A stretch of 52,564 bases of DNA from a virus. The DNA lies in the IMG/VR virus record IMGVR_UViG_3300042945_003702, positions 1 through 52,564 of that record, one strand, 5' to 3'. A model generated the notes under the pieces. It made no database searches. It saw only the letters and a list, made by a program, of their open reading frames with translations, and was not told the DNA's origin. Both the position numbers and the translations under genes were made by a program. Below, piece by piece: positions 20,367-52,564 of the stretch. The number at the start of each line of letters is the position of its first letter. The stretch's first letter is position 1.

Positions 20367-22322
20367 ATGAAAGAGCACGTACTCAACCACAAAGAACCTC
20401 TCTCTTCCCAGCAGCCTAAAAAGGTTGTATTCATAGAGATGTTCAGAGCAGGTCCCCAGATCTCCTCCACCGGTCAGAAGTTAGTCTTTACGGAGAGTGA
20501 CCTCGATCAGGTGGTGGGGTCTTACAACCCCGATACTCACGAGGCTCCTCTGATAATCGGTCACGACCAGCAGGACGATACTCCGGCTCTAGGTTGGGTA
20601 CGTAAGATCTGGAAGAAAGGTCAAGAACTTTGGGGTAAGGTGGAGCTTACCCCTAAAGCCGAACAACTCATCAAAGATGGGGTGTTTAAGAAAGTAAGTA
20701 GCTCATTTTACCTGCCTGAAGCTGAAACGAATCCTACACCTGGGAAACTTTCCCTACGCCATCTTGGTTTAGTTTCTATTCCGGCAGTCAAAGGACTAAC
20801 TGCTTTTTCGGAGTTATCCGAACAAGAAACGATCACAATTACCCCCTCCGAAGGGGAGTCTTCTATTTCGTTTAAAGAACACTTAGGAAAAAATCAAACT
20901 ATGGCTAGGAAGAAAACCAAACCAGAAACTCCCACTTCGGTTGCTTCGGTTGTCGAGCACAACGAGGGTGGGGGAATGACCGTGAATATCAACATTGGTG
21001 GTGGTGATAAGCCCAAAGCCAATGTGTACGATGATAGCGGCAATAGGATTTCCGAGACCGGTGCTCCTGCGGAGTACGACATGGACTACGGTATGGAGTC
21101 CGACTCCGAGGACGACGCCTCGGCTATGGATCCGGGCGACGGAGCATCCGACAGCCTAGGGCTGGAAGATGGCGCCGACGAAGGTGCTGATGCCGACCCC
21201 ACCGCTGACGGTGACATGCCTTCTCAGGATGGTGAGGCACCCGACGCGGAAGCCGGCATGGATTCCGGTGATGATGCTACCGATGGCGGGACCGATGACG
21301 GATCCGCCGGGCCTTCTACTGATGGCGACACGGGTTCCGGCATGGAAACCGAGGATATCTCGGGAGATATGCAAGGAGATGATCAGAAGATCGCCCAACT
21401 CGCGTCTAATTACGAGATAGACGAGCTGATCAAGGCCCTGGCTCTTAAAACTGATGCTGCCTCCATGATGGAGGGTGAGGGAATGTCTTATGGCGAGATG
21501 CCAGAGGGACTCAAGAAGGCTATGGAAGCTAAGAAGGGTGGTGAGAGTGAGAAGGACGACGAGGAGGAAGAGGACAGCAAGGACATGGGAGAAGCTGTGA
21601 AGGAAGGTGAGAAGCCCTCCGACGCTGGCCAACCGCCCTCCGAGGACGTGAAAGGCGCTGACGAACCCAAGGGAGAGCAGGTTTACTCCGAGGAGGAAGC
21701 TACCGAGGAAGACGAGGAAGTTTCCGAGCACGGGGAAGGCTGCAAGGACTACGAGGAGGATGAGGAAGAGAAGAAGAAAAAGGAGATGATGAAGGGAGAC
21801 ATGTCGGAAGAGACCGTTTCAAAAGAGGCTACAGGAACTCTGGATCATAGCGAAACCGCTATGGGAGTTCGGGGACAGAATGACCTTCAGGCCCGGGTAG
21901 CCGAATTGGAAGAGGAACTTGCCAGACAGAAAAAACTCATGAGAGAGAAGGAAATCTCTGATTTCTGCGAGACTCTATACGATGGTGGTAAACTGACCCA
22001 GCAGATCGTCTCTAAGACGGATCTCGTCCGGTTCATGGAGACCCTCAATAACAAGAACTCGGTGAACTTCTCTGAGACAGGCAAAGCCTCTCAATTTGAC
22101 TTCTTCAAAGGTGTCCTGGAGAACCTACCCTCCATGGTCAGCTTCGAGGAATTCGCGACCCCAGCTTCGGCTCCACCAGCCAAGAAGCAAGTCACGCCTT
22201 CGGCTGATGGGTACGTCTACGATCCCGCCACAGCGGACCTTCACGCGCAAGCTCTGGAGTACTCCGAAGCGAAGGGTGTCGAGTACACCATCGCTCTGAA
22301 GGCTGTTCTATCTAACTCTTAA
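20367..22322 (+). CDS. Head maturation protease-scaffold (Mu I/Z-like)
   Basis: The 651-residue protein has three parts. Residues 1 to about 160 resemble the Mu gpI protease: VFIEMFRAGPQ, PLIIGHDQQDDTPALGWV, FKKVSSSFYLP and LSLRHLGLVSIPAVKGL. Residues about 180-490 are extremely acidic (Asp/Glu/Gly/Ser), as in phage scaffolds. The C-terminal 150 residues have a coiled coil (ARVAELEEELARQKKLMREK) and a folded end. It would direct capsid assembly and then digest itself and the scaffold. The next genes encode decoration and capsid proteins, as in Mu-like phages. An internal start at 20901 probably yields free scaffold. Confidence 0.8.
   Translation: MKEHVLNHKEPLSSQQPKKVVFIEMFRAGPQISSTGQKLVFTESDLDQVVGSYNPDTHEAPLIIGHDQQDDTPALGWVRKIWKKGQELWGKVELTPKAEQLIKDGVFKKVSSSFYLPEAETNPTPGKLSLRHLGLVSIPAVKGLTAFSELSEQETITITPSEGESSISFKEHLGKNQTMARKKTKPETPTSVASVVEHNEGGGMTVNINIGGGDKPKANVYDDSGNRISETGAPAEYDMDYGMESDSEDDASAMDPGDGASDSLGLEDGADEGADADPTADGDMPSQDGEAPDAEAGMDSGDDATDGGTDDGSAGPSTDGDTGSGMETEDISGDMQGDDQKIAQLASNYEIDELIKALALKTDAASMMEGEGMSYGEMPEGLKKAMEAKKGGESEKDDEEEEDSKDMGEAVKEGEKPSDAGQPPSEDVKGADEPKGEQVYSEEEATEEDEEVSEHGEGCKDYEEDEEEKKKKEMMKGDMSEETVSKEATGTLDHSETAMGVRGQNDLQARVAELEEELARQKKLMREKEISDFCETLYDGGKLTQQIVSKTDLVRFMETLNNKNSVNFSETGKASQFDFFKGVLENLPSMVSFEEFATPASAPPAKKQVTPSADGYVYDPATADLHAQALEYSEAKGVEYTIALKAVLSNS
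20870..20877 (+). promoter_or_regulatory. Internal GTTTAAAG element within protease gene
   Basis: GTTTAAAG, 23 nt before an in-frame ATG at 20901, with TTAGGA as a possible ribosome-binding site between. The spacing matches that found before other late genes, so an internal promoter for scaffold is plausible. Confidence 0.5.
20901..22322 (+). CDS. Internal in-frame scaffold protein (predicted)
   Basis: An ATG at codon 179 of the protease gene (MARKKTKPETPTS) would give a 473-residue product lacking the protease domain but keeping the acidic region and the C-terminal coiled coil. In Mu, scaffold gpZ is made from an internal start in gene I, so this arrangement has precedent. The start has its own GTTTAAAG element at the usual spacing. 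No direct proof of expression. Confidence 0.5.
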   Translation: MARKKTKPETPTSVASVVEHNEGGGMTVNINIGGGDKPKANVYDDSGNRISETGAPAEYDMDYGMESDSEDDASAMDPGDGASDSLGLEDGADEGADADPTADGDMPSQDGEAPDAEAGMDSGDDATDGGTDDGSAGPSTDGDTGSGMETEDISGDMQGDDQKIAQLASNYEIDELIKALALKTDAASMMEGEGMSYGEMPEGLKKAMEAKKGGESEKDDEEEEDSKDMGEAVKEGEKPSDAGQPPSEDVKGADEPKGEQVYSEEEATEEDEEVSEHGEGCKDYEEDEEEKKKKEMMKGDMSEETVSKEATGTLDHSETAMGVRGQNDLQARVAELEEELARQKKLMREKEISDFCETLYDGGKLTQQIVSKTDLVRFMETLNNKNSVNFSETGKASQFDFFKGVLENLPSMVSFEEFATPASAPPAKKQVTPSADGYVYDPATADLHAQALEYSEAKGVEYTIALKAVLSNS

Positions 22323-32064: not shown

Positions 32065-32080
32065 TGCTGTGGTGTGATAT

Positions 32081-32141
<61 letters not shown>

Positions 32142-32151
<10 letters not shown>

Positions 32152-32267
32152 TCTTCGGGCTCGTCCTCGTAGCTACTAGGTTCCTCGAAGAGCTCGCGCA
32201 ACTTGAGTCTGTTAGCCAGTTCTAGTAACTGCGAGAAATCCTCTTCCTTGGTTAGTTGTTCAGCCAT
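32142..32267 (-). CDS. Short acidic peptide between tRNA genes
   Basis: A 41-residue frame (MAEQLTKEEDFSQLLELANR...) that is helical and then acidic (SSYEDEPEEGG). Its last codons overlap the 5' end of tRNA-Val, so the two transcripts interfere or are processed apart. A GTTTAAAG at 32275-32282 lies only seven nt upstream, too close for the usual promoter spacing. Unknown function. Confidence 0.5.
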
Positions 32268-32290
32268 CGGAAAGCTTTAAACTGTTTTAT

Positions 32291-32373
32291 GCGCGAGAGA
32301 GGACTTGAACCTCCACGGGGTTGCCCCCACGGGTATCTAAAACCCGGGCGTCTACCAATTCCGCCACTTGCGC
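32291..32373 (-). tRNA. tRNA-Leu (UAG)
   Basis: Class II tRNA with anticodon loop TTTAGAT and a long variable arm (GTGGGGGCAACCCCGT). The acceptor GCGCAAG/CTCGCGC has one A-C mismatch. Confidence 0.93.
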
Positions 32374-32378
32374 GAGGT

Positions 32379-32450
32379 GCTCGATGCGAGGATCGAACTC
32401 GCCTATATCCGATTATGAGTCGGGTGCTTTCACCAGATAGCTAATCGAGC
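32379..32450 (-). tRNA. tRNA-Met/Ile2 (CAU)
   Basis: Cloverleaf with anticodon loop CTCATAA. The CAU anticodon could be elongator Met or a lysidine-modified Ile tRNA; sequence alone does not decide. Confidence 0.93.
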
Positions 32451-32454
32451 GAGT

Positions 32455-32525
32455 AGGACCGCGGAGACTCGGACTCCGTTCACTCCGTTATAAGCAGAGG
32501 GCCTTAACCCATAGGCGACGGTCCC
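32455..32525 (-). tRNA. tRNA-Ile (UAU)
   Basis: Anticodon loop CTTATAA, stem CTCTG/CGGAG. The T-loop is TCCGAGT, slightly unusual. This tRNA would read the rare AUA codon. It is the first tRNA downstream of the sigma70-like promoter. Confidence 0.88.
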
Positions 32526-32558
32526 AAAGCTCACCGACCGTGTCTCCGGTGTATGTAC

Positions 32559-32587
32559 ATTATACCATATGTTGGGACAACAATCAA
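32559..32587 (-). promoter_or_regulatory. Sigma70-like promoter for tRNA segment
   Basis: On the minus strand TTGATT, then exactly 17 nt, then TATAAT preceded by TGG (extended -10). It points into the Ile-Met-Leu-Val tRNA segment and the CP12-like gene. It looks suited to the host RNA polymerase, so these genes may be early. Confidence 0.7.
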
Positions 32588-32618
32588 TAGGAGGCTTAGC
32601 GTACCGGCTATCTGAAGG

Positions 32619-32780
32619 TCATAGGTACGCAATGTCTCGCGAATCGACAGGAATAAATGATCCATCGGTGGTTCTGACAATAAATACGGCGTAGTACCCC
32701 GGAAAGTCCGCCGATACCCCCTGTATTATACCCGTTCTCCAGAGTTTGTAGTAGGTAAAGCCTACGCGTCTCCCCCTCAT
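32619..32780 (-). CDS. Small basic protein, 53 residues
   Basis: The frame (MRGRRVGFTYYKLWRTGIIQ...) overlaps the stop of the upstream gene by ATGA, which supports translation. It is beta-rich in character (YYAVFIVRTTDGSFIPVDS). Function unknown. Confidence 0.55.
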   Translation of the reverse strand: MRGRRVGFTYYKLWRTGIIQGVSADFPGYYAVFIVRTTDGSFIPVDSRDIAYL

Positions 32781-33229
32781 TTGCCGCCGGAGTGGACGGA
32801 TGGTAGGTTGGGGAACACGGACTCTAGGACGTTAATCTGGCCCACCAGCACCCCCACAACTAGCAAAGCCCCACCTAACAACCACTTGAATCTCGATAAG
32901 TCGTCTATGCGAGAGCCCAGTACCTTCACCTCCTTATCCACCTTCGTATCGAGGTCACTTATCTCGTCGGTGGTGGACTTTATCTCCCGGGCGTGATTGG
33001 ACTTTAGCTCATCTAGGAGCTTTATTATCGCTGTGTCTGACTGTATGCTCTGGTCCAGGCGTTCCTCGTGTCTTACGAGGATCTTCGCCACGTTCTGATT
33101 GGCTTCTGAGATCTTGTCTACAGCCGTCTCGAGTTTGGAGAGCATCTCTCTGGAGAGATCCTCGTAGACGTTTAGTTTTTCCTCTAGAACGGCGAGTCTT
33201 ACGTTTGAGGAGCCAAATAAGTTAGCCAT
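32777..33229 (-). CDS. Membrane-anchored coiled-coil protein
   Basis: The 150-residue protein has a long N-terminal coiled coil (residues about 12-112; RLAVLEEKLNVYEDL, ISDLDTKVDKEVKVLGSRID). A single transmembrane helix (WLLGGALLVVGVLVGQI, about 115-131) follows, and then a short polar end. The order resembles XhlA-type phage proteins that help lysis, but those are shorter. It may also tether a complex to the membrane. GTTTAAAG lies 42 nt upstream of the start. Confidence 0.65.
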   Translation of the reverse strand: MANLFGSSNVRLAVLEEKLNVYEDLSREMLSKLETAVDKISEANQNVAKILVRHEERLDQSIQSDTAIIKLLDELKSNHAREIKSTTDEISDLDTKVDKEVKVLGSRIDDLSRFKWLLGGALLVVGVLVGQINVLESVFPNLPSVHSGGK

Positions 33230-33271
33230 ACGGGATCGGATATGCGTAACGAATCGTACTACCAGTTATTA

Positions 33272-33279
33272 CTTTAAAC
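33272..33279 (-). promoter_or_regulatory. GTTTAAAG promoter-like element
   Basis: GTTTAAAG on the minus strand between tRNA-Thr and the coiled-coil gene, 42 nt before its ATG. Confidence 0.4.
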
Positions 33280-33282
33280 AAA

Positions 33283-33355
33283 GCCCCCTGTCGGACTCGA
33301 ACCGACGACCTACGGTTTACAAAACCGGTGCTCTATCCAGCTGAGCTAAGGAGGC
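33283..33355 (-). tRNA. tRNA-Thr (UGU)
   Basis: Complete cloverleaf, acceptor GCCTCCT/AGGGGGC, anticodon loop TTTGTAA, T-loop TTCGAGT. Confidence 0.95.
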
Positions 33356-33358
33356 GGG

Positions 33359-33431
33359 GTGTAGGACGGGACTTGAACCCGCATAAACTAGAATCACAAT
33401 CTAGTGCATTAGCCAATTATGCTACCTACAC
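33359..33431 (-). tRNA. tRNA-His (GUG)
   Basis: Acceptor GTGTAGG/CCTACAC with anticodon loop TTGTGAT. Stems are well paired. Confidence 0.95.
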
Positions 33432-33433
33432 AT

Positions 33434-33504
33434 GGCAGTAATGGGATTTGAACCCATAATTCCGTCGTTATGAATGACGGGCTTTACCGTTAAGCTATAC
33501 TGCC
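33434..33504 (-). tRNA. tRNA-Met/Ile2 (CAU), second
   Basis: Anticodon loop TTCATAA; acceptor GGCAGTA/TACTGCC. The anticodon stem CGTCA/CGACG has one mismatch next to the loop. This is the second CAU tRNA, so one of the two may be Ile2. Confidence 0.9.
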
Positions 33505-33508
33505 TGGC

Positions 33509-33597
33509 GGAAGATGTTGGATTTGAACCAACGGAGCCGGGTGTACCGACTCGGCGGTTTAGCAAACCGCTGCCTTAAGCCTCTCGGCCAATCTTCC
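33509..33597 (-). tRNA. tRNA-Ser (GCU)
   Basis: Class II tRNA, anticodon loop TTGCTAA, long variable arm, acceptor GGAAGAT/ATCTTCC. Confidence 0.95.
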
Positions 33598-33616
33598 AAT
33601 GTTGCCCGAAGGCAAT

Positions 33617-33697
33617 GCTCATGAAGGGACTTGAACCCCTACGCCTTACGGCACGTGCACCTCAAGCATGCGTGTCTACCAATTCCACCACACGAGC
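33617..33697 (-). tRNA. tRNA-Leu (GAG)
   Basis: Class II tRNA, anticodon loop TTGAGGT with one A-C mismatch in the stem, variable arm TGCCGTAAGGCG. A TTGCC-CGAA-GGCAA hairpin lies in the adjacent spacer at 33602-33615. Confidence 0.92.
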
Positions 33698-33701
33698 TGG
33701 A

Positions 33702-33771
33702 GTTTCAGGTCAGAATCGAACTGACGATAGAGGCTTTGCAGGCCTCCGCCTTACCACTTGGCCACTGAAAC
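33702..33771 (-). tRNA. tRNA-Cys (GCA)
   Basis: Anticodon loop CTGCAAA; acceptor GTTTCAG/CTGAAAC. It is followed by TCCA, that is U73 plus an encoded CCA end, extending the gene to 33698. Confidence 0.95.
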
Positions 33772-33789
33772 ATTTGCCTTTTGGCAAGC

Positions 33790-33862
33790 GCTCTCTGAGA
33801 GATTTGAACTCCCGACACCCTGGTCCGTAGCCAGGTGCTCTAGTCCGCTGAGCTAAGAGAGC
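33790..33862 (-). tRNA. tRNA-Arg (ACG)
   Basis: Acceptor GCTCTCT/AGAGAGC, anticodon loop CTACGGA. A34 would need conversion to inosine by host TadA. A TTGCC-TTTT-GGCAA hairpin lies in the 3' spacer. Confidence 0.95.
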
Positions 33863-33867
33863 ATGGC

Positions 33868-33937
33868 ACCGAAACAAGGACTTGAACCTTGGATAACAGT
33901 TTTGGAGACTGTCGTGTTACCACTACACTATTTCGGT
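33868..33937 (-). tRNA. tRNA-Trp (CCA)
   Basis: Anticodon loop CTCCAAA; acceptor ACCGAAA/TTTCGGT, followed by an encoded GCCA end (to 33864). Confidence 0.95.
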
Positions 33938-33955
33938 ATGTTGCCCGAAGGCGAT

Positions 33956-34027
33956 TGGAACGACGAGGTTTGAACTCGTGACCTCACGATTATCGGTCGT
34001 GTGCTCTACCAACTGAGCTACGTTCCA
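33956..34027 (-). tRNA. tRNA-Ile (GAU)
   Basis: Anticodon loop CCGATAA, acceptor TGGAACG/CGTTCCA. The spacer next to it has a TTGCC-CGAA-GGCGA hairpin. Confidence 0.94.
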
Positions 34028-34192
34028 TTATGTGCCCGTGGTGGGGAATGATCCCACTCTCAATAGACTTGAGGTTTCGTACAAGAAGAACTCTTATGAG
34101 GGAGAATCTTATCAGTGTGGGTTCAGCACACCTATCTAAAACTACTTTGTCAAGTTGAACCCTATTTTACCGTCCCAACGGCAAAGGCAAGC
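34028..34192. other. Spacer with tRNA-like remnant
   Basis: About 165 nt without a complete tRNA. On the minus strand a variable-arm-like hairpin (CTCAA-GTCTA-TTGAG) is followed by GTGGG-ATCATTC-CCCAC and CACGGGC. This looks like the 3' half of a class II tRNA, but no matching 5' half is seen. A second hairpin GTGTG-GGTTCAG-CACAC lies at 34117-34133. Confidence 0.3.
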
Positions 34193-34264
34193 GGGAACAG
34201 TCGGAATCGAACCGACAACACCACGATCTTCAATCGTGTGCTCTACCGTTGGAGCTACGTTCCC
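34193..34264 (-). tRNA. tRNA-Phe (GAA)
   Basis: Anticodon loop TTGAAGA; acceptor GGGAACG/TGTTCCC. All arms are present. Confidence 0.95.
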
Positions 34265-34268
34265 TGGC

Positions 34269-34341
<73 letters not shown>

Positions 34342-34375
34342 ATATACGCCGGCGCGGGCGAGGGTATCCACCTAC

Positions 34376-34392
34376 GGAAACGGGAACCGTTT
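34376..34392. other. Spacer hairpin in tRNA cluster
   Basis: GAAACGG-GAA-CCGTTTC forms a perfect seven-pair stem in the spacer between tRNA-Arg and tRNA-Ala. A CCCCC-GCGA-GGGGG tetraloop hairpin lies nearer tRNA-Ala. Confidence 0.6.
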
Positions 34393-34468
34393 CTCTACGA
34401 TGTGGCTTAGGGGACCCTTCGTTTAAGCCTCCGTTCCTTGGAGGCCCCGAACCCCCGCGAGGGGGCAT

Positions 34469-34540
34469 GGAGAGTAGGAGGCTCGAACTCCTGACAGCCT
34501 GCTTGCAAAGCAGGTGCTCTACCAGCTGAGCTAACCCCCC
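34469..34540 (-). tRNA. tRNA-Ala (UGC)
   Basis: Anticodon loop TTTGCAA; acceptor GGGGGGT/ACTCTCC with two G-T pairs. Confidence 0.94.
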
Positions 34541-34558
34541 TGGCGGCCCTTTTGTTAA

Positions 34559-34605
34559 AGCGGTAGAGCCGAACCGCATCAATGGAGAACGTTTGGACCG
34601 TTCTC
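34559..34605. other. Two spacer hairpins between tRNA-Ala and tRNA-Pro
   Basis: GCGGT-AGAGCCGA-ACCGC and GAGAACG-TTTGGAC-CGTTCTC follow one another. They may guide tRNA precursor processing. Confidence 0.55.
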
Positions 34606-34609
34606 GAGT

Positions 34610-34680
34610 CGGGGTGAGAGGGATCGAACCTCCGACATCCTGCTCCCAAAGCAGGCGCGCTACCGCTGCGCTACACCCCG
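34610..34680 (-). tRNA. tRNA-Pro (UGG)
   Basis: Anticodon loop TTTGGGA; acceptor CGGGGTG/CACCCCG, the Pro-typical C1-G72 pair. Confidence 0.95.
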
Positions 34681-34740
34681 TGATGGCCCCATTTAACACG
34701 TTAGAACACGGCTCAAGACCGGCCAGAGGTGGGGGCTAGG

Positions 34741-34764
34741 GGCTCCGGTAGTGACCCCGGAGCC
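34741..34764. other. Perfect 8-bp hairpin
   Basis: GGCTCCGG-TAGTGACC-CCGGAGCC. There is no T-run, so a terminator is unlikely. It is the strongest local structure in the long tRNA-cluster gap. Confidence 0.6.
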
Positions 34765-34825
34765 GCCTGTCACTAGGCTGCCCGATGCTTACGCAGAGCG
34801 GGAACGAGGCAGGTGTCTCTACGCT

Positions 34826-34877
34826 GTACGTTCCTTACGTGTCACCAGCTCTGTCGTACGTTCCCTACGTGTCACCA
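34826..34877. repeat. Tandem 22-nt direct repeat, 30-nt period
   Basis: GTACGTTCCYTACGTGTCAC plus CA occurs at 34826-34847 and 34856-34877, with a single difference (T or C). Each unit contains two ACGT palindromes, so it may be a protein-binding site. Confidence 0.7.
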
Positions 34878-35201
34878 ACAGTTCAACTCCTTTTGCTTTC
34901 CTTACCTCGGCAGGGTGCCGCTACCTCCCTTTTTTGCGGCGTGTGTGTACGTTTCGTTTATCTGGGTACGTTACTAGACCCAGGATACTGCTTACTGTAC
35001 CCGCATCAAGTCGTGAGTGTCGTTAACGCTTGAGCATGGAATGGGAGTTCACCCATTCATCACTTATTTGGGAGCCTGAACTATGACTCTTACAGGCAGT
35101 TTGGCATTTTTCTCGCTCCCAGACTACGCAAACTGCCAAATGGCATCTGGGCACAAGCCTACTTCCCCCTCGTCTAGTAGGCGTCGCATGGACGAGGGAA
35201 C

Positions 35202-35272
35202 TGGCCCGGCAGGGATCGAACCTGCGACAACTTGATTAACAGTCAAGCGTTCTACCGCTGAACTACAGGCCA
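35202..35272 (-). tRNA. tRNA-Asn (GUU)
   Basis: Anticodon loop CTGTTAA; acceptor TGGCCTG/CGGGCCA. Confidence 0.95.
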
Positions 35273-35278
35273 TTGAGC

Positions 35279-35360
35279 GGAGAGGAAGGGACTCGAACCC
35301 CCGAGGCTTTTACACCCAACAGTTTTCAAGACTGCGCCCTCGACCAACCGGACCCTCTCC
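35279..35360 (-). tRNA. tRNA-Ser (UGA)
   Basis: Class II tRNA, anticodon loop CTTGAAA, long variable arm, acceptor GGAGAGG/CCTCTCC. Confidence 0.93.
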
Positions 35361-35413
35361 GTGAGGTTTGCCACCGGCATTCCGGATTATCAGCTCCGGC
35401 GCGAAGTGGCGAC

Positions 35414-35486
35414 GACCCATACGGGATTTGAACCCGTGATCTCCACCGTGACAGGGTGGCGTGATAGACCGCTACACTAATGGGTC
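35414..35486 (-). tRNA. tRNA-Asp (GUC)
   Basis: Anticodon loop CTGTCAC; acceptor GACCCAT/ATGGGTC. The spacer before it contains a GCCAC...GTGGC inverted repeat. Confidence 0.95.
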
Positions 35487-35491
35487 AAGGT

Positions 35492-35572
35492 GGGTAGGGG
35501 TGGATTTGAACCACCGATGGCAGAGCCGCCTGATTTACAGTCAGGTTCCTTAAACCACTCGGACACCTACCC
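35492..35572 (-). tRNA. tRNA-Tyr (GUA)
   Basis: Class II tRNA with anticodon loop CTGTAAA; acceptor GGGTAGG/CCTACCC. Confidence 0.95.
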
Positions 35573-35591
35573 AAAACAGTTTATGTTTGCC

Positions 35592-35609
35592 GACCGAGCT
35601 GAAACGGTC
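35592..35609. other. Spacer hairpin in tRNA cluster
   Basis: GACCG-AGCTGAAA-CGGTC between tRNA-Tyr and tRNA-Lys. Confidence 0.5.
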
Positions 35610-35612
35610 AAT

Positions 35613-35683
35613 GGGTCTGGTGGGGCTCGAACCCACAACTTCCAGGTTAAAAGCCCGTTACTCTGCCATTGAGTTACAGACCC
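35613..35683 (-). tRNA. tRNA-Lys (UUU)
   Basis: Anticodon loop CTTTTAA; acceptor GGGTCTG/CAGACCC. The outermost pair of the anticodon stem is mismatched. It is the 5'-most tRNA of the dense cluster on the minus strand. Confidence 0.92.
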
Positions 35684-35994
35684 ATAAAAGGTTTAGATTG
35701 TCAAGGTTCGGGGGTCGTGGGGGGGCCGGAGAAGTCCGTCTCCCTTGACCATGAGACTAATATATCAGAGACGGGAGGCTTTGGGAATGGCCTGGTGGAC
35801 GGTTGGTAAGCTGTCCACTTCGGTCTCCGCGCAAAAGAAAAGAGGGGAGAAGTCTTTTTGACCTCTGCCCCTCCTGTAATTTGCTTATAGAGTTTCCCGT
35901 ATTAGCAAACAAGAGGGGCCAGCACCGCATCTCTCGGTGAGGGGTTCTTAAATGCAATATACGAGAAGTTAGTCATACTAGTCTATAAACACTG
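35684..35994. other. Non-coding region with strong stem-loop
   Basis: No convincing gene. It contains a GTCAAGG...CCTTGAC inverted repeat (about 35699-35748) and a long imperfect hairpin at 35842-35873. Confidence 0.5.
35842..35873. other. Long stem-loop, possible RNA structure
   Basis: GAGGGG-AGAAGTC with loop TTTTT pairs with GACCTCT-G-CCCCTC in a stem of about 12-13 pairs with one bulge. It could be a small RNA or a terminator for the hli operon. Confidence 0.45.
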
Positions 35995-36012
35995 TCAGTA
36001 TGTTTCTGACAG
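35992..36012 (-). terminator. Inverted repeat at end of hli operon
   Basis: CTGTCAG-AAACATA-CTGACAG on the minus strand overlaps the end of the 28-codon gene and is followed by TGTTTATAG. The T-run is weak. Confidence 0.4.
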
Positions 36013-36081
36013 TTGATTGATCGAGTGAAAGAGAAGCACCAGAAAAGCCACGGAGGTGACGGTGAAGATAACCTCTCCCAT
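35995..36081 (-). CDS. 28-residue single-span membrane peptide
   Basis: MGEVIFTVTSVAFLVLLFHS then INQLSETY. Its ATG overlaps the stop of the hli gene (TGATG), which argues for coupled translation. Length and one hydrophobic helix resemble small photosystem or cytochrome b6f subunits, but I cannot match it to a named one. It may act in the thylakoid membrane with the Hli protein. Confidence 0.5.
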   Translation of the reverse strand: MGEVIFTVTSVAFLVLLFHSINQLSETY

Positions 36082-36200
36082 CACCACACGCCAGGGATGA
36101 CCTGGCCAGTCACGAAGTACGCACCTACAGCGGCCACGAAGCCGAGCATTGCCAGCCGGCCATTGAGCTTTTCGGCCTTCTCAGTAAAGATCTTGTCCAT
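36081..36200 (-). CDS. hli: High-light-inducible protein (Hli), short form
   Basis: The 39-residue product contains the chlorophyll-binding Hli signature EKLNGRLAMLGFVAAVGAYF and ends TGQVIPGVW. It has one transmembrane helix with the conserved E..NGR.AM motif. Hli proteins bind chlorophyll and carotenoid, dissipate excess light energy and help photosystem repair; phages use them to keep photosynthesis going. A 28-residue membrane peptide is coupled downstream. Confidence 0.92.
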   Translation of the reverse strand: MDKIFTEKAEKLNGRLAMLGFVAAVGAYFVTGQVIPGVW

Positions 36201-36255
36201 TGTTACCTAGTTGGTTTGTAGAGGTAGGAGGGGGGAGGAAACGCTTCAGTCGTCG

Positions 36256-36450
36256 TCAGAAGACTCCGAAGAAGAGCTTACCAGTGAGAGCGTAAGAAAC
36301 AGCACCAGCAATAATACCGACCATAGCCCAGCGTCCATTAGTGCGTTCCTTCACCTGGTTGGGGGTGAGCATGCCGTAGTTTTCGTAGTACATGACAGGC
36401 TCTTTGGCCCACATGTTCTGCTGGCCACGCTCGTTAGTTGTAACCGTCAT
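36256..36450 (-). CDS. hli: High-light-inducible protein (Hli), second
   Basis: From ATG 36450 (GGAG ribosome-binding site) the product has 64 residues: a polar N-terminus (MTVTTNERGQQNMWAKEPV), then ERTNGRWAMVGIIAGAVSYA and LTGKLFFGVF. The NGRWAM..G motif marks it as Hli. A longer frame from 36483 is less likely. Along with the neighbouring Hli, it should protect photosystem II during infection. Confidence 0.9.
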   Translation of the reverse strand: MTVTTNERGQQNMWAKEPVMYYENYGMLTPNQVKERTNGRWAMVGIIAGAVSYALTGKLFFGVF

Positions 36451-36488
36451 AGAGAAGTCTCTCCACATTTCCTTAACCATCATATCAT

Positions 36489-36513
36489 AAAAATGGGGGG
36501 CTTGTGGCCCCCC
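36489..36513 (-). terminator. Terminator after porin gene
   Basis: On the minus strand GGGGGGC-CACAA-GCCCCCC is followed by ATTTTTAT. It is a strong intrinsic terminator downstream of the SLH porin gene. Confidence 0.9.
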
Positions 36514-36539
36514 GTAGCCAGTTTGTCAGGAGACCCTGA

Positions 36540-37415
36540 TCAGAACTTGATGCCCAAGCCGGTCGTGAAGACGGGGCTGTAGGAGGATCCGGTAACGCCG
36601 GAGTTTGTCGTGGGGAACTTCAGGTCGGCAAAGCCGATCAGTGAGTTGGTCAGACGACCCTCGACGCCCAGAGCGAATACCACCTGACCCTTATTCCCAA
36701 CCGCGGACTGGAAGTTGGAGGTGGTGTTATTCACAAAGGGAATCTGGTAACCGACACCGGCATACAGATTGGCCTTGCTAACACCACTGGAGGCTTTGGC
36801 CAAGCTCATATCGTAGGAGATGAGGCCACCACCACCGGCCCCGATCTGGCCCGAAGGACTCCCGACCAGGTTGGCGTAGGGGCGCACCGAGATGGCGTTC
36901 TGGTTGGAGAAGGTCTTGGCGGAGTAACGGGCCTGGATCGTGGCACCAGAGACGGTGCGATTAGCCCCGTAGCCATTGCCATTGACACCCTGGCGATCCA
37001 ACAGAACACCGGCACCCAGGTAATTACCCACACCCTGAGCTTTTTGCGCTGCTGCGACTTCCAAAGCAGTTACACGGGAGTTGGTCTGAGCGATCTCTCT
37101 GCCGAACTCGGCCCGGAGAGCAGCGGCAGTCTGGGCGTCAGCGGCGGAGTAGAATTCGGTGATACGATCGAGACAGGCATTTGTCAGAGCGGCAAGCTCA
37201 GCACGGGTGGCGGGCTGACCTGGCTTAAAGGTGCCGTTCGGGTACCCGGCCACGCAACCGTAACGGGAGATTAGGTTGGAGACGGCTTGGTACGACCACT
37301 CGGTGGGCTGAACGTCGCGCAGTTGACCAACGCTTGTTACTTGAGCCATGGCGGCCATCGGAGCAATCATGGTAACAGCGCTGATGGCACCAATTGCAGA
37401 GACGAGCTTTTTCAT
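36540..37415 (-). CDS. Cyanobacterial-type SLH porin, shortened
   Basis: The 291-residue protein has a signal peptide (MKKLVSAIGAISAVTMIAPM, cleavage near AMA-Q). An SLH domain follows (about 25-85; DVQPTEWSYQAVSNLISRYG, VAGYPNGTFKPGQPATRAEL, LTNACLDRI). Next is a short coiled coil (AQTNSRVTALEVAAAQKAQ), then a beta-barrel-like part ending in Phe (TTGLGIKF), which suits outer-membrane insertion. Host porins of this type usually have about 500 residues, so the barrel is much reduced. It probably inserts in the host outer membrane or binds the wall. A phage role in nutrient uptake or superinfection exclusion is speculation. Confidence 0.85.
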   Translation of the reverse strand: MKKLVSAIGAISAVTMIAPMAAMAQVTSVGQLRDVQPTEWSYQAVSNLISRYGCVAGYPNGTFKPGQPATRAELAALTNACLDRITEFYSAADAQTAAALRAEFGREIAQTNSRVTALEVAAAQKAQGVGNYLGAGVLLDRQGVNGNGYGANRTVSGATIQARYSAKTFSNQNAISVRPYANLVGSPSGQIGAGGGGLISYDMSLAKASSGVSKANLYAGVGYQIPFVNNTTSNFQSAVGNKGQVVFALGVEGRLTNSLIGFADLKFPTTNSGVTGSSYSPVFTTGLGIKF

Positions 37416-37500
37416 ACTTTCTTAAGAATGTTTGGAACGTGAAGGGGTTACGCGTCTCTCTAGGCTATTTGCCTAGCAACTACGTTGTTATCCCCTAAGA

Positions 37501-37571
37501 GCGGAATAGGGGATTTGAACCCCTGACATCCTACTTGGAAGGAAGGCGCTCTACCGCTGAGCTAATTCCGC
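37501..37571 (-). tRNA. tRNA-Gly (UCC)
   Basis: Anticodon loop CTTCCAA; acceptor GCGGAAT/ATTCCGC. It lies apart from the main cluster, just upstream of the porin gene. Confidence 0.95.
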
Positions 37572-44074: not shown

Positions 44075-45154
44075 TTAGCCGATAGCCGGAGCCTTAAGCG
44101 CCACCGGAGTGGTCTCGGCGGCGGCCAGATCGAGGGGGAAGTTGTGAGCGTTGCGCTCGTGCATCACCTCGAAGCCAAGGCCCGCGCGGTTGAGGATGTC
44201 GGCCCAGGTATTGATCACGTGGCCATCTGAGGAGAGCAACGACTGGTTGAAGTTGAATCCGTTCAGATTAAACGCCATAGTGCTAACACCCAGAGCAGCA
44301 AACCAAATGCCAACAACCGGCCAAGCAGCAAGAAAGAAGTGAAGAGAACGACTGTTGTTAAAACTAGCATACTGGAAGATAAGACGTCCGAAATAACCGT
44401 GAGCAGCTACAATGTTGTAGGTCTCTTCCTCCTGACCGAACTTGTATCCGTAGTTCTGCGACTCTGTCTCTGTCGTCTCGCGAACAAGACTAGAGGTGAC
44501 GAGAGATCCGTGCATAGCAGAGAAAAGAGAACCACCGAAGACCCCAGCAACTCCCAACATGTGGAAAGGATGCATGAGAATGTTGTGTTCGGCTTGGAAA
44601 ACAAGCATGTAGTTGAAAGTTCCCGAAATCCCCAGAGGCATCGCGTCAGAGAAGGATCCTTGACCGAAGGGATAGACCAGAAAAACTGCGCTAGCAGCAG
44701 CAACGGGTGCGCTGTAGGCAACCATAATCCAAGGACGCATGCCCAGACGATAAGACAGTTCCCATTCACGGCCCATGTAGGCATAGATTCCGATGAGGAA
44801 GTGGAAGACCACCAGTTGGAAAGGACCGCCATTGTACAGCCACTCGTCGAGGCTGGCAGCTTCCCAGATGGGGTAGAAGTGCAGGCCGATGGCATTGCTG
44901 GAGGGAACAACAGCACCTGAGATGATGTTGTTGCCATACATCAGCGACCCGGCGACTGGCTCACGGATGCCGTCGATGTCGACGGGGGGAGCTGCGATGA
45001 AAGCAACGATGAAGCAGATTGCTGCTGCCAGGAGCGTGGGGATCATCAGGGTACCAAACCAACCAACATAGAGTCGGTTGTCGGTGGATGTGACCCACTG
45101 GCAGAACTGCTCCCATGTGTTACTCCGCTCGCGTTGGGCGATTGAAGCTACCAT
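44075..45154 (-). CDS. psbA: Photosystem II D1 protein
   Basis: The 359-residue protein is full-length D1, the reaction-centre subunit that turns over fastest in high light. Familiar segments are [57 protein letters not shown] and the C-terminal [20 protein letters not shown]. Residue 130 is Glu (GRE-WEL), the form linked to high-light D1 in cyanobacteria, rather than Gln. Phage psbA keeps photosynthesis running as host D1 decays. No intron is seen. GTTTAAAG lies 76 nt before the ATG, and CTATAGT is nearer. Confidence 0.98.
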
Positions 45155-49478: not shown

Positions 49479-50753
49479 ATGAAAACCAACTCGGTAACAG
49501 CGGATATGGCAGCGGCGTTGGATCCAGAGACCTCGGAGAAGAAACTGCTCGAGATCTGGAATAAATCCAAGTCGGTGAGGGTTCGGAAGGCTGTAGCATC
49601 CAACCCCAACGCCTCGCCGCTGGTGCTTACCGAGGGATCCAGACTGTACCTGAAGGAGGTCCTGGAAAACCCGGGATTCGCTCTGCTCGAGATTTTTTCC
49701 GACGATCCGGACATCAGGGAACTCTCCGAAGCTTTCAATGACCCGATGAAGTGGGTGGTTACTCGCGGAGGGCCTTACATCACCAGGCCCAAAAGCCATG
49801 CGAAAGCCCTGGCCTGGGACCGAGTGAGGTGGGCGGTTCTTCTTAGCCCCCACTTAGGGTGGGTGGGTTTGAACGCTGTCCTAGATACGATAAGACTGGA
49901 GACTTTCAGGAGAGCTATGAAGTGCGAGGAGACTAGGAAGAAGGTCAGATCCATTTTCCTAGAGGCAATGGTGGTAGGCCAAGCATCTCCGGACAAGATC
50001 ATGCTCATGAATAAGGAGCTAATGATCACCACCGAGGAAGCTCGGTGGGGGTTTAAGTGCCACGCGGTGGTTAGTTCCTACTCTAGCCCTCGCGCGTTGC
50101 TAAGTTCCTACTCCAAAGTGCTTCATAAAACCTACAGAGATGACAAGGAGCAGAGAGATGCTATAGTTGAGACGCTGTTCTACTTGTGTCTCATGCAAAG
50201 ACCCTACAGCATGCGCCACCTGCTACCGAGAAGCTTTTATCATCTGGACGATGGCGTGGAGAGTCTGTACATCTCCCTCCTCAAAATGGTAAGGGAGAAA
50301 GCCTCGATGGATAAGTCTAAGTCAGTTCTTAAAAAGAAGCTGGAGAAGATCTGTAAGCACTTAGAAGACGCGTTTGGCGAGACCGCCACAAACAAGTATC
50401 TTTTCAAAACAAAAGGTGAGGTAACCAAAGAGGATATTCAAAACTTATACAACTACGTTCAGCGCTCTGGCCTAAACCCGCAAAACTCGCAGACCCACCT
50501 CGTCCGCCACTTTAACGATTTACTCAGGCCTCACACCAAGGCGTTAGGGGAGTGCAGTATGGAGATCAAGGAGTGGGCGTGTAAGAATAAGCTTTTAGGG
50601 TGGGTAGTCTCACGTGCTCCTTACCACGAGGAAATAGTGAAGATCCTAGACGAAGTCAACTACGCCATCTACCAGCGAGATGGGGAAGTAAACCGTGACA
50701 ACCTTCTCTTCGTCTCTGAGGAGATACCCGGGGGCATCATCCGGCTTCACTGA
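49479..50753 (+). CDS. Helical-repeat protein (LRV-like N-terminus)
   Basis: The 424-residue protein starts one nt after the preceding stop. Residues about 15-90 have short helical repeats (VRVRKAVASNPNASPLVL, LKEVLENPGFALLEIFSDDP) like leucine-rich-variant or HEAT-type repeats. The remainder is helical, basic and lacks recognised motifs. It overlaps the gene at 50737 (opposite strand) by 17 nt. A scaffold or host-interaction role is possible but unproven. Confidence 0.6.
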   Translation: MKTNSVTADMAAALDPETSEKKLLEIWNKSKSVRVRKAVASNPNASPLVLTEGSRLYLKEVLENPGFALLEIFSDDPDIRELSEAFNDPMKWVVTRGGPYITRPKSHAKALAWDRVRWAVLLSPHLGWVGLNAVLDTIRLETFRRAMKCEETRKKVRSIFLEAMVVGQASPDKIMLMNKELMITTEEARWGFKCHAVVSSYSSPRALLSSYSKVLHKTYRDDKEQRDAIVETLFYLCLMQRPYSMRHLLPRSFYHLDDGVESLYISLLKMVREKASMDKSKSVLKKKLEKICKHLEDAFGETATNKYLFKTKGEVTKEDIQNLYNYVQRSGLNPQNSQTHLVRHFNDLLRPHTKALGECSMEIKEWACKNKLLGWVVSRAPYHEEIVKILDEVNYAIYQRDGEVNRDNLLFVSEEIPGGIIRLH

Positions 50754-51834
50754 CTACAAACTTAACAACAAAGCTCTCCAGCTGCTCGTCGTAGCAGCCG
50801 GCCTGGAGCGAGTACAATCTCTCCGTATCCGAACCGTCCTCATCGCTCCAGCGCACAAAAGCTGGGAGGATGGACTTGGATACGGTTTTTTTGATGGCTG
50901 AGATGGCCTGCTCCACCGTGCTTAAAACCTTCGTTTTAAACCTGTTTTCTATGTCCGTTATATCCTCTACAGGTAGGTGGTAAAAAGCGGCCAAAGTGAG
51001 GTTTTTAACGTCGAATATCCCCTGTTGCGGGGATTCGGACGCGGAGAGTTTCTCACCGTAGAGTTTGACGGCTCGTTGGTAGCAGTTGAACACAGAGAGG
51101 GTCTTGCGCTCCGGCAGGAGCGCGCCTAATTCCCGCTCGAGTAACATAAGCGCGCCGGCCACCGCCCCCGCTCCCACTCTGGCTATGTAGGCTTTGTCGA
51201 GAACCTGCTCCATCGCCATCCCCTCCACCTCGCAGAACTGATTCTCCCACTCCTCCAGCACCTCAAGTTGCTTGGAGGCCTTACTCGGTACTCTGTTATT
51301 CTGATTCCACTTAAACCCGTTCTGCTGAGCGAACTCCAGTCTGTTGGTAAAATCGCTTGGTAGTTTTGTAGTATCCAGCTTAGCAACTTCACTACCAACT
51401 CTGGACTGGGAGCCCATAACCCCCTCGACCAGCGACTTAACAGCGTAGGGGGCATAGGCATTACCACGGAGCGCTTTGGCCACCTTCACGATCTGCTCTA
51501 TCCTCCCCCTGCTCAACCTCACCTCCGTGATCTCAGCTCTCAACTCCTGGATCTCGAGTTGGGCCTTCAGGTACATAGATTCCATGCGACTCTCCGCCGC
51601 CACCTGGTCCCTTCTCAGGTCGCGGATATCCAGCTCCAGTAGGGTGACTCTCTGTATAAAAGCACCCATGGCTAGCCTTAGCCCCTCGAAGTAGCGCCGC
51701 AGCTCCAGCTCGGTAAGCTGCCTCTGGTCCAGCTCCAGCAGGGTTCTACCCAGCCTCTCCCTAGACTCAGGGGAGGTTATGTCACCCAGGGCGTAGCTGT
51801 CCCGCAGTAGTACTATCTCCGAGTTCTTAGCCAT
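50737..51834 (-). CDS. Coiled-coil protein of unknown function
   Basis: From ATG 51834 (MAKNSEIVLLRDSYALGD) the product has 365 residues; an upstream ATG at 51906 is less likely, because GTTTAAAG then lies inside the gene. Residues about 30-110 form a coiled coil (LDQRQLTELELRRYFEGL; RDQVAAESRMESMYLKAQLE). A helical middle and a beta-rich end (VVKFVVSEAG) follow. Probably a virion or assembly protein, judged from the late-type element 21 nt upstream. Family not recognised. Confidence 0.6.
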   Translation of the reverse strand: MAKNSEIVLLRDSYALGDITSPESRERLGRTLLELDQRQLTELELRRYFEGLRLAMGAFIQRVTLLELDIRDLRRDQVAAESRMESMYLKAQLEIQELRAEITEVRLSRGRIEQIVKVAKALRGNAYAPYAVKSLVEGVMGSQSRVGSEVAKLDTTKLPSDFTNRLEFAQQNGFKWNQNNRVPSKASKQLEVLEEWENQFCEVEGMAMEQVLDKAYIARVGAGAVAGALMLLERELGALLPERKTLSVFNCYQRAVKLYGEKLSASESPQQGIFDVKNLTLAAFYHLPVEDITDIENRFKTKVLSTVEQAISAIKKTVSKSILPAFVRWSDEDGSDTERLYSLQAGCYDEQLESFVVKFVVSEAG

Positions 51835-51855
51835 GTGGTTTAGCCGTTCAGTAAG

Positions 51856-51863
51856 CTTTAAAC
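51856..51863 (-). promoter_or_regulatory. GTTTAAAG late-promoter-like element
   Basis: GTTTAAAG, 21 nt before the ATG at 51834. It helps set the start of that gene. Confidence 0.55.
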
Positions 51864-51975
51864 TGTGGACATAAAAACACGATTTGTCCACCTCACCGAG
51901 TACCATTTGCGGCCCGATTCCAAACCCGAATAGCCCCCCACCCCCCCTTCACAAAAATAGCTAAAAAGAATGTGA

Positions 51976-51990
51976 AGAGGGGGGGTCCCC
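51976..51990. repeat. G-run/C-run palindrome
   Basis: A run of G, one T, then a run of C forms a self-complementary hairpin with almost no loop. Just upstream is AATGTGAAGAG, a minus-orientation copy of the TTCACA element. Confidence 0.6.
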
Positions 51991-52111
51991 CCGCGCACCG
52001 GAATGCGCGCAGCGCCGATTTCACGCGAGTTGGAGCCAGACGCCGCAATGGCCGCCACCACGCACCGGGACGTTTTTGGCCCTATCATACCCCCTTCACA
52101 TCGTAAAAAGG

Positions 52112-52178
52112 GACCCCCCTTCACATTTTTAGCCGCATTTTTGCACTGTTTTTGGGCCAAAAAATGTGAGGGGGGGTC
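52112..52178. repeat. 19-nt inverted repeat with C-run and TTCACATTTTT
   Basis: GACCCCCCTTCACATTTTT (52112-52130) and its reverse complement with one mismatch (52160-52178) flank 29 nt. Related single elements lie near 51943, 51969 and 52090. Confidence 0.75.
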
Positions 52179-52205
52179 TGTGGGCCGCATCGCGGGGCCA
52201 AAAGC

Positions 52206-52260
52206 TGTGACAATCCGCTGTGACAATAACTCCCCAAAAATGTGTCAATATTGTGACAAT
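52206..52260 (+). repeat. TGTGACAAT iteron-like repeats
   Basis: TGTGACAAT at 52206, 52219 and 52252, and a one-mismatch copy (TGTGTCAAT) at 52241. Further copies are at 52342-52350 (inverted) and 52458-52466. Spacings of 13, 22 and 11 nt are near whole or double helical turns. Confidence 0.7.
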
Positions 52261-52564
52261 GCCATGGCCACTTCACGAGGTGGTTTTGGGTGCCACGAAG
52301 TGGCTACCCGCCCATTGACAGGCCGCGCTTCCCATGATATGATTGTCACAGTTCAGCAGTCATCGTTTAAAGACATGAAGATCTACAATTAACCCCGACT
52401 AGTTTAGCACAGCGTTATCACATTTGCCACTACGCTGTGTAACCCCCACCCCCGAACTGTGACAATCGACGCCCCACGTACGCTCGTAGAGCGCGTTGTG
52501 CCCGCCGGCCCGCCACGACCCCGGTGGCCCGGCCTCGACGCGTGGGCGCCGGATAAAAACCCAG

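Follow-up and report, generated by a model that had tools for sequence, protein, structure and literature searches.

A repeat-dense contig end in an uncultured TIM5-like cyanophage and its probable position at the border of a large inverted repeat

What lies behind a viral contig that ends in gene-free DNA crowded with short repeats? The question is raised by IMGVR_UViG_3300042945_003702, a single virus record of 52,564 nt classed as linear, which was analysed over its whole length and is referred to below as the window. In the first-pass annotation, some 700 gene-free nucleotides at its end were thought to be a replication origin, a packaging site or a switch region. The region is indeed free of genes: positions 51835-52564 were taken as non-coding because the start of the flanking gene that matches its relatives is 51834, although its open reading frame can open as far as 51906.

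Judged from its sequence, the window is a fragment of an uncultured TIM5-like cyanophage (Aurunvirus and relatives). It was placed in the TIM5 lineage because its gyrA-type topoisomerase subunit is 61% identical to that of cyanophage S-TIM5 and its sister isolates S-TIM54, S-TIM61 and S-TIM66 (genus Aurunvirus), and at most 34% to those of the other phages listed, and because its last gene matches S-TIM records only. This last gene (50740-51834, minus strand, 365 aa), the first of the left end of the unique region UL (UL-left), finds 5 of 50,697 phage records at 35-37% identity, and the order of the homologous core genes at UL-left is the same in the window and in TIM5-like cyanophages. Its product has no Pfam or PHROG match and no convincing relative among solved structures. 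The predicted model is mostly helical and of low confidence (pLDDT 68, pTM 0.31), too poor to be used for a fold search. The window also carries a psbA-like gene (44075-45154), named for its likeness to S-TIM5 psbA in position and sequence and coding for a 359-aa D1-type protein, and an alpha-glucosyltransferase-like gene that scores below the Pfam cut-off.

The end of UL and the inverted repeat

The contig end very probably marks the border of UL with a large inverted repeat (IR), in genomes that would be laid out UL-IR-US-IR' with a second unique region, US. No single contig spans both IR copies, so this layout was pieced together from borders in several genomes. UL would measure about 160 kb, IR 5.7-6.4 kb and US 5.2-5.4 kb.

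In the virus of the window, in the relative G007 and in S-TIM5, the two ends of UL carry the same sequence in inverted orientation. The outermost 127 nt of the IR beside UL-left (52438-52564) are identical at 127/127 positions to the first 127 nt of a UL-right contig, IMGVR_UViG_3300042939_001032 (L056); the two sequences then diverge, and L056 continues into the end of UL opposite to that of the window. Where the first-pass annotation had raised the possibility of a genome end or junction, the junction of UL with a collapsed inverted repeat was located at 52437/52438, the point of this divergence. The same 127 nt match contig G011 at 95% identity where its IR borders on UL-right. The first 127 nt of G007 (159,262 nt) are the exact inverse of its last 127, and left and right ends are shared over 106/106 nt by L007 and L061 and over 71/71 nt by L010 and L057, which bear the same metagenome number. 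In the isolates, positions 1-90 of the S-TIM5 record are the inverse of 161513-161602 (90/90) and positions 1-37 of S-TIM54 behave likewise (37/37); the S-TIM61 and S-TIM66 records begin inside UL and allow no test of UL-end identity.

Three contigs run from UL-left straight into IR sequence: G013 (about 5.6 kb), L124 (1.8 kb) and L004 (1.5 kb). The IR stretch of G013 is homologous to the S-TIM5 IR, found in the S-TIM5 record at UL-right only. The corresponding join of IR to UL-right is seen in the S-TIM records, G011 (6.0 kb) and G012. Among the contigs examined, none joined UL-left to anything but IR. For the virus of the window itself, no IR or US sequence came to light. A query with the S-TIM helicase gave no US contigs of relatives in IMG/VR. 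Of 45 loci from a metallophosphoesterase scan, compared with the border sequences, only one that was already in the set was used.

The arrangement of US can be read in the isolates. In S-TIM5, IR occupies positions 161513-167237 (5,725 nt) and US 167238-172414 (5,177 nt); the record closes with 60 nt that form the inverted start of another IR copy, and its first 90 nt represent the other end of that copy. US is flanked by the same inverted sequence over 60-98 nt in all four S-TIM records, with an identical border directly after GTAGGGCTTGT. The S-TIM5 US is the exact inverse of the S-TIM61 and S-TIM66 US over 5177 nt at 99.2% identity, and this opposite orientation may reflect either a real isomer or an arbitrary choice during assembly. 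Homologous recombination between the IR copies would keep them identical and would flip US relative to UL. The deposited S-TIM records carry one IR copy only. The S-TIM5 'complete genome' (JQ245707.2, L012/L013) seems to lack most of the other copy; if the layout is true, about 5.6 kb are missing and the genome would measure about 178,049 nt against the 172,474 deposited. Proteins encoded beyond 161,453 in this record belong to the UTS accession series and nearly all others to the AEZ series, which suggests that this part was added later.

The same layout would explain where contigs stop. Short-read assemblers are expected to collapse two IR copies, leaving contigs that end one word inside the IR, and SPAdes assemblies commonly use words of up to 127 nt. 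The contigs end one such word past the divergence point, as a collapsed repeat would and a physical end would not. Of 22 UL-left sequences (21 IMG/VR loci and the window), 12 stop no more than 113 nt outward of the outermost TGTCACA box; L004, G013 and L124 extend beyond that distance. Four others stop short of the box and two within the gene, and in L114 nothing matches the box where it would be expected. On the UL-right side, six of ten contigs stop within 113 nt of passing the matching box, and the remaining four continue. If the layout holds, short reads would not yield a single contig for the uncultured relatives, and the 'linear' fragments in IMG/VR would be accounted for.

The border itself lies close to a short element, the junction box TGTGACAAT (52458-52466, plus strand). 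In the lineages with a left/right pair, identity ends 20 nt (window), 8 nt (G007), 12 nt (L010) and 10 nt (S-TIM5) past the TGTCACA junction box, distances that were counted by eye on printed borders. Since the lineages compared differ by up to 65% in the neighbouring protein, a border within 8-20 nt of the box indicates that it has kept close to a single short element, held there perhaps by an active mechanism or by selection on the flanking promoters. A hairpin at the border was considered as a general feature and rejected: when 16 left and 9 right borders were folded against shuffles preserving letters and not dinucleotides, z was about -3 only in L042 and L056 and otherwise between -2.2 and +1.6.

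Repeats and promoters of the control region

On the UL side of the junction, about 600 nt form a conserved non-coding control region. Exact copies of TGTGACAAT number five in the whole window against 0.25 expected, and all of them lie in the contig-end region, on the plus strand at 52206, 52219, 52252 and 52458 and on the minus strand at 52342; at least five copies were reached in 0 of 100 shuffles of the window. With the variant TGTGTCAAT (52241-52249) they make up the six repeats reported initially. The near-helical spacing attributed to all six holds for the four of the plus-strand cluster at 52206-52260 (52206, 52219, the variant at 52241, and 52252), which follow one another at steps of 13, 22 and 11 nt, and does not extend to the other two, which follow 52252 by 90 and 206 nt. 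The repeats are concentrated rather than scattered through the genome: in G007, five of the six TGTGACAAT copies lie at its two ends (four at the same end as in the window, one at the junction of the opposite end) and the sixth at the primase-adjacent place described below. The motif ATTGTCACAATATTG(A/T)CAC at the box cluster is common to ten of ten aligned heads, and the TGTGACAAT cluster is strictly conserved in the window and G007 branches. The S-TIM records share with the window the junction box and the outward promoter described below, whereas the S-TIM5 branch differs in having a diverged G-run element and no TGTGACAAT cluster, the junction box being the only copy present there.

A second family of elements occurs in both directions, as had been noticed. 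Three exact copies of CCCCCTTCACA lie on the plus strand (51943, 52090, 52115) and two copies with one mismatch on the minus strand (51971, 52165), five in all against 1.2 expected and in 0 of 100 shuffles. The element at 52090-52100 (plus strand) stands alone. A C-run/TTCACAT...ATGTGA/G-run inverted repeat spans 52112-52178; its 19-bp stem (arms 52112-52130 and 52160-52178; single-strand fold z -5.9, 0 of 200 shuffles) is the 19-nt inverted repeat of the first reading. A second one, C-run/TTCACA...TGTGAAGA/G-run, spans 51940-51986, and both have an invariant core in eight heads. The arms of both stems hardly vary, and as the letters are kept without covariation nothing can be concluded about RNA structure. 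MicroRNA models found on the 19-bp stem in an RNA-family search were below threshold and were dismissed as chance. Two further inverted repeats were recorded in the window: a perfect 14-nt pair, GATTGTCACAGTTC/GAACTGTGACAATC, at 52341-52354 and 52454-52467, and CACAGCG-N18-CGCTGTG across the junction (52408-52439; arms 52408-52414 and 52433-52439; stem z -3.9), which is present as described and is not conserved in relatives. The resemblance of TGTGA to half of a CRP-type site found no support, TGTGA-N6-TCACA with at most one mismatch being absent from 51864-52564. Nucleotide searches of the 701-nt region against phage records and of 52200-52564 against plasmids gave no match.

Facing the IR, a sigma-70 promoter, TTGACA-N17-TATGAT, is found at 52315-52343 on the plus strand. 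An outward promoter of this kind, reading from UL into IR with 0-1 mismatch to TTGACA, a spacer of 17-18 nt and TATAAT, occurs in 13 of 14 heads, which are related and hence not independent events; the fourteenth (S-TIM61) begins inside the promoter, and S-TIM66 was outside the scan. The hexamers are constant among heads while the letters of the spacer vary. At the same stringency, three sigma-70 sites fall in the window, against none in any of 10 resampled windows, and 13 in G007. The minus-strand TGTGACAAT box (52342-52350) lies over the end of the -10 hexamer. The direction of the first IR genes in S-TIM5 is that of the outward promoter; in the window's branch, the first IR ORF is oriented against it. 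Host RNA polymerase would use this promoter and bring about early expression of the adjacent IR copy. S-TIM5 also encodes a sigma factor annotated SigF.

A promoter-like motif, GTTTAAAG, is present in 11 copies in the window against 1.1 expected. Its sites include 45231, 46571, 51856 and 52365, and several lie just upstream of genes; the copy at 51856-51863 (minus strand) is 22 nt upstream of the UL-left gene and that at 52365-52372 (plus strand) faces the IR. It is likely to be a phage promoter element. The control region probably starts early transcription and perhaps replication. What stands of the proposed switch region is the conserved outward sigma-70 promoter with its clustered boxes.

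Two relatives show peculiarities within this region. In L005, about 400 additional nt (284-691) separate the promoter from the box cluster of the control region. L014, the S-TIM54 record, has 98-nt tandem repeats with G-runs at UL-left (264-547) and two 10-N gaps, and from these runs of N the UL-left region seems hard to sequence in isolates too.

A second place for the same motifs

The two elements of the control region, TGTGACAAT and TGTGA(A/G)GGGG with its inverse, recur together at one other place in G007. In this genome, TGTGARGGGG-type elements occur at 360, 414, 590 and 139945 only, and the two elements lie within 80 nt of each other in the UL-left region and at 139945-139961 only, a pairing seen in 0 of 20 resampled genomes. 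The latter site is directly upstream of a 329-aa ORF whose S-TIM5 homologue, AEZ65737, follows a gene annotated DNA primase. Elements of the TGTGACAAT type and the G-run type were found upstream of this primase-adjacent ORF in six of six loci, in either orientation, L135 being nearly the same virus as G007. Letter changes occur there: L134 has GTGGGAGGGGG and GTGAAGGGGGG, and L136 has TGTGAGGGGGC. In S-TIM5, the diverged G-run form GGGA(A/C/T)A(A/G)*GGGG is present in five copies, four at UL-left and one upstream of AEZ65737. The element thus changed at both places together, which argues for one protein reading both. TGTGARGGGGG is not strictly confined to these places, since an additional copy lies at 35495 in G014, a close relative of the window; single copies are present at the primase-adjacent ORF in G012 and G018 and at UL-left in S-TIM54, and none in G016.

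One phage-encoded DNA-binding protein would bind both places. It would most likely be a replication initiator or a regulator controlling its own gene. Among the phages searched, the primase-adjacent ORF is restricted to S-TIM records (5 of 50,697). Its family matches are a PHROG of unknown function and, in the S-TIM5 homologue, one of the two tested, a weak match to a DNA-primase PHROG (E 6e-4); no Pfam family, no meaningful NCBIfam match and no solved structure were found. If the reading is true, the two-place motif set points to a candidate, open to testing, for the protein that controls replication or early genes in the lineage. The conserved 328-aa ORF beside the DNA primase in L054 (1482-2465; S-TIM5 145481-146467), lineage-specific and with the weak primase PHROG match, is 61-62% identical to its G014 homologue, the UL-left gene only 35%.

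Competing readings and known systems

A further-reaching account of these data can be advanced tentatively. It describes a widespread lineage of tailed cyanophages with a herpesvirus-like UL-IR-US-IR' genome that would isomerise by recombination, and whose junction would be held at the box together with an early promoter and a replication start and would be bound by a primase-adjacent initiator carrying the motif at its own gene, the motif having changed at both places together.

A possible reading, compatible with the junction and layout described above, is an iteron-type origin where an initiator would bind the TGTGACAAT cluster, open the DNA and start replication, the IR junction being incidental. 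Plasmid iteron origins and operators feature short direct repeats in clusters, with related elements beside a gene of replication type. The window shares the clustering, with steps of 11-13 nt, its strict conservation in two branches and the recurrence of the same elements at the primase-adjacent gene, and US of S-TIM5 encodes a Dda-like helicase. To this extent the replication origin proposed initially may be right. Against it, the skew comparison gave no origin-like inflection, either in the profile of the window or in the cumulative GC skew of G007 at this end, and the region has no DnaA-type box and no clearly AT-rich unwinding stretch (44-46% GC at the lowest). The cluster is also absent in the S-TIM5 branch, and unlike in the plasmid systems the initiator is a candidate only.

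It is improbable that the inverted join is a chimera of assembly or library preparation and that the second IR copy does not exist. The two copies are never together in one contig and the evidence for the layout comes from assembled sequences, but the same border recurs in cultured isolates and in several metagenomes, always at the homologous place.

It is also improbable that a recombinase works at the TGTCACA junction box as part of a site-specific inversion switch like those of Mu G and P1 C. The P1 C and Mu G segments lie between inverted repeats and occur in two orientations, and here too inverted repeats flank US and UL, the orientation of US differs between records and the border keeps to 8-20 nt from the box. 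However, a Pfam search for three families (tyrosine recombinase, serine resolvase, telomere resolvase) gave 0 matches in three records (S-TIM5, S-TIM54, and G007, which is without IR and US), the orientation of a record may be an arbitrary assembly choice, and the TIM5-like US differs from P1 C and Mu G in that no invertase was found and its genes encode a helicase and a kinase instead of tail fibres. Such a switch is moreover unneeded, because a kilobase-long repeat lets homologous recombination suffice.

That the contigs end here because the virion DNA does, at a physical terminus or a cos/pac packaging site, is equally improbable: most contigs of relatives and the S-TIM records end near this place, but these ends fall one assembler word beyond a divergence point common to the two ends of UL (127/127), L004, L124, G013, L042, L057, L059 and L043 run 1.5 to about 9.5 kb through it, and TerL is of the T4 type, a lineage with headful cutting and without fixed ends.

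The probable UL-IR-US-IR' layout has counterparts elsewhere. Herpesvirus genomes have UL and US bounded by inverted repeats, and the TIM5-like phages would resemble them in having a pair of unique regions, both enclosed by inverted copies of a single repeat. US occurs in both orientations among the TIM5-like records, as in herpesviruses, from which they differ in that the two orientations are seen between records only and in being a different virus. The chloroplast genome is likewise quadripartite (LSC-IR-SSC-IR'), with identical IR copies that confuse assemblers; the phage IR differs in amounting to about 3% of the genome per copy and in having its border near a short box. We know of no tailed phage with a quadripartite inverted-repeat layout. 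In the literature searched, which took in the TIM5 passages of PMC8975747 but not the original S-TIM5 description, neither a quadripartite tailed-phage genome nor inverted repeats in S-TIM5 were described. The layout is thus familiar from herpesviruses and plastids, and its occurrence in a tailed phage appears to be new. If confirmed, a phage that combines large inverted repeats with a pair of unique regions would provide a laboratory model for the upkeep of such layouts and the reasons behind it. Tailed phages and herpesviruses belong to the same broad virus realm.

Some other features of the window were recorded. It carries 23 tRNA genes within about 5.5 kb (32080-37571), all on the minus strand, and inside this tRNA region, near 35.6-35.7 kb, it is 99% identical over 100 nt to the contig end of G012. 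Positions 21001-22000 show an unusually high GC skew (0.22) and AT skew (0.28) over 1 kb.
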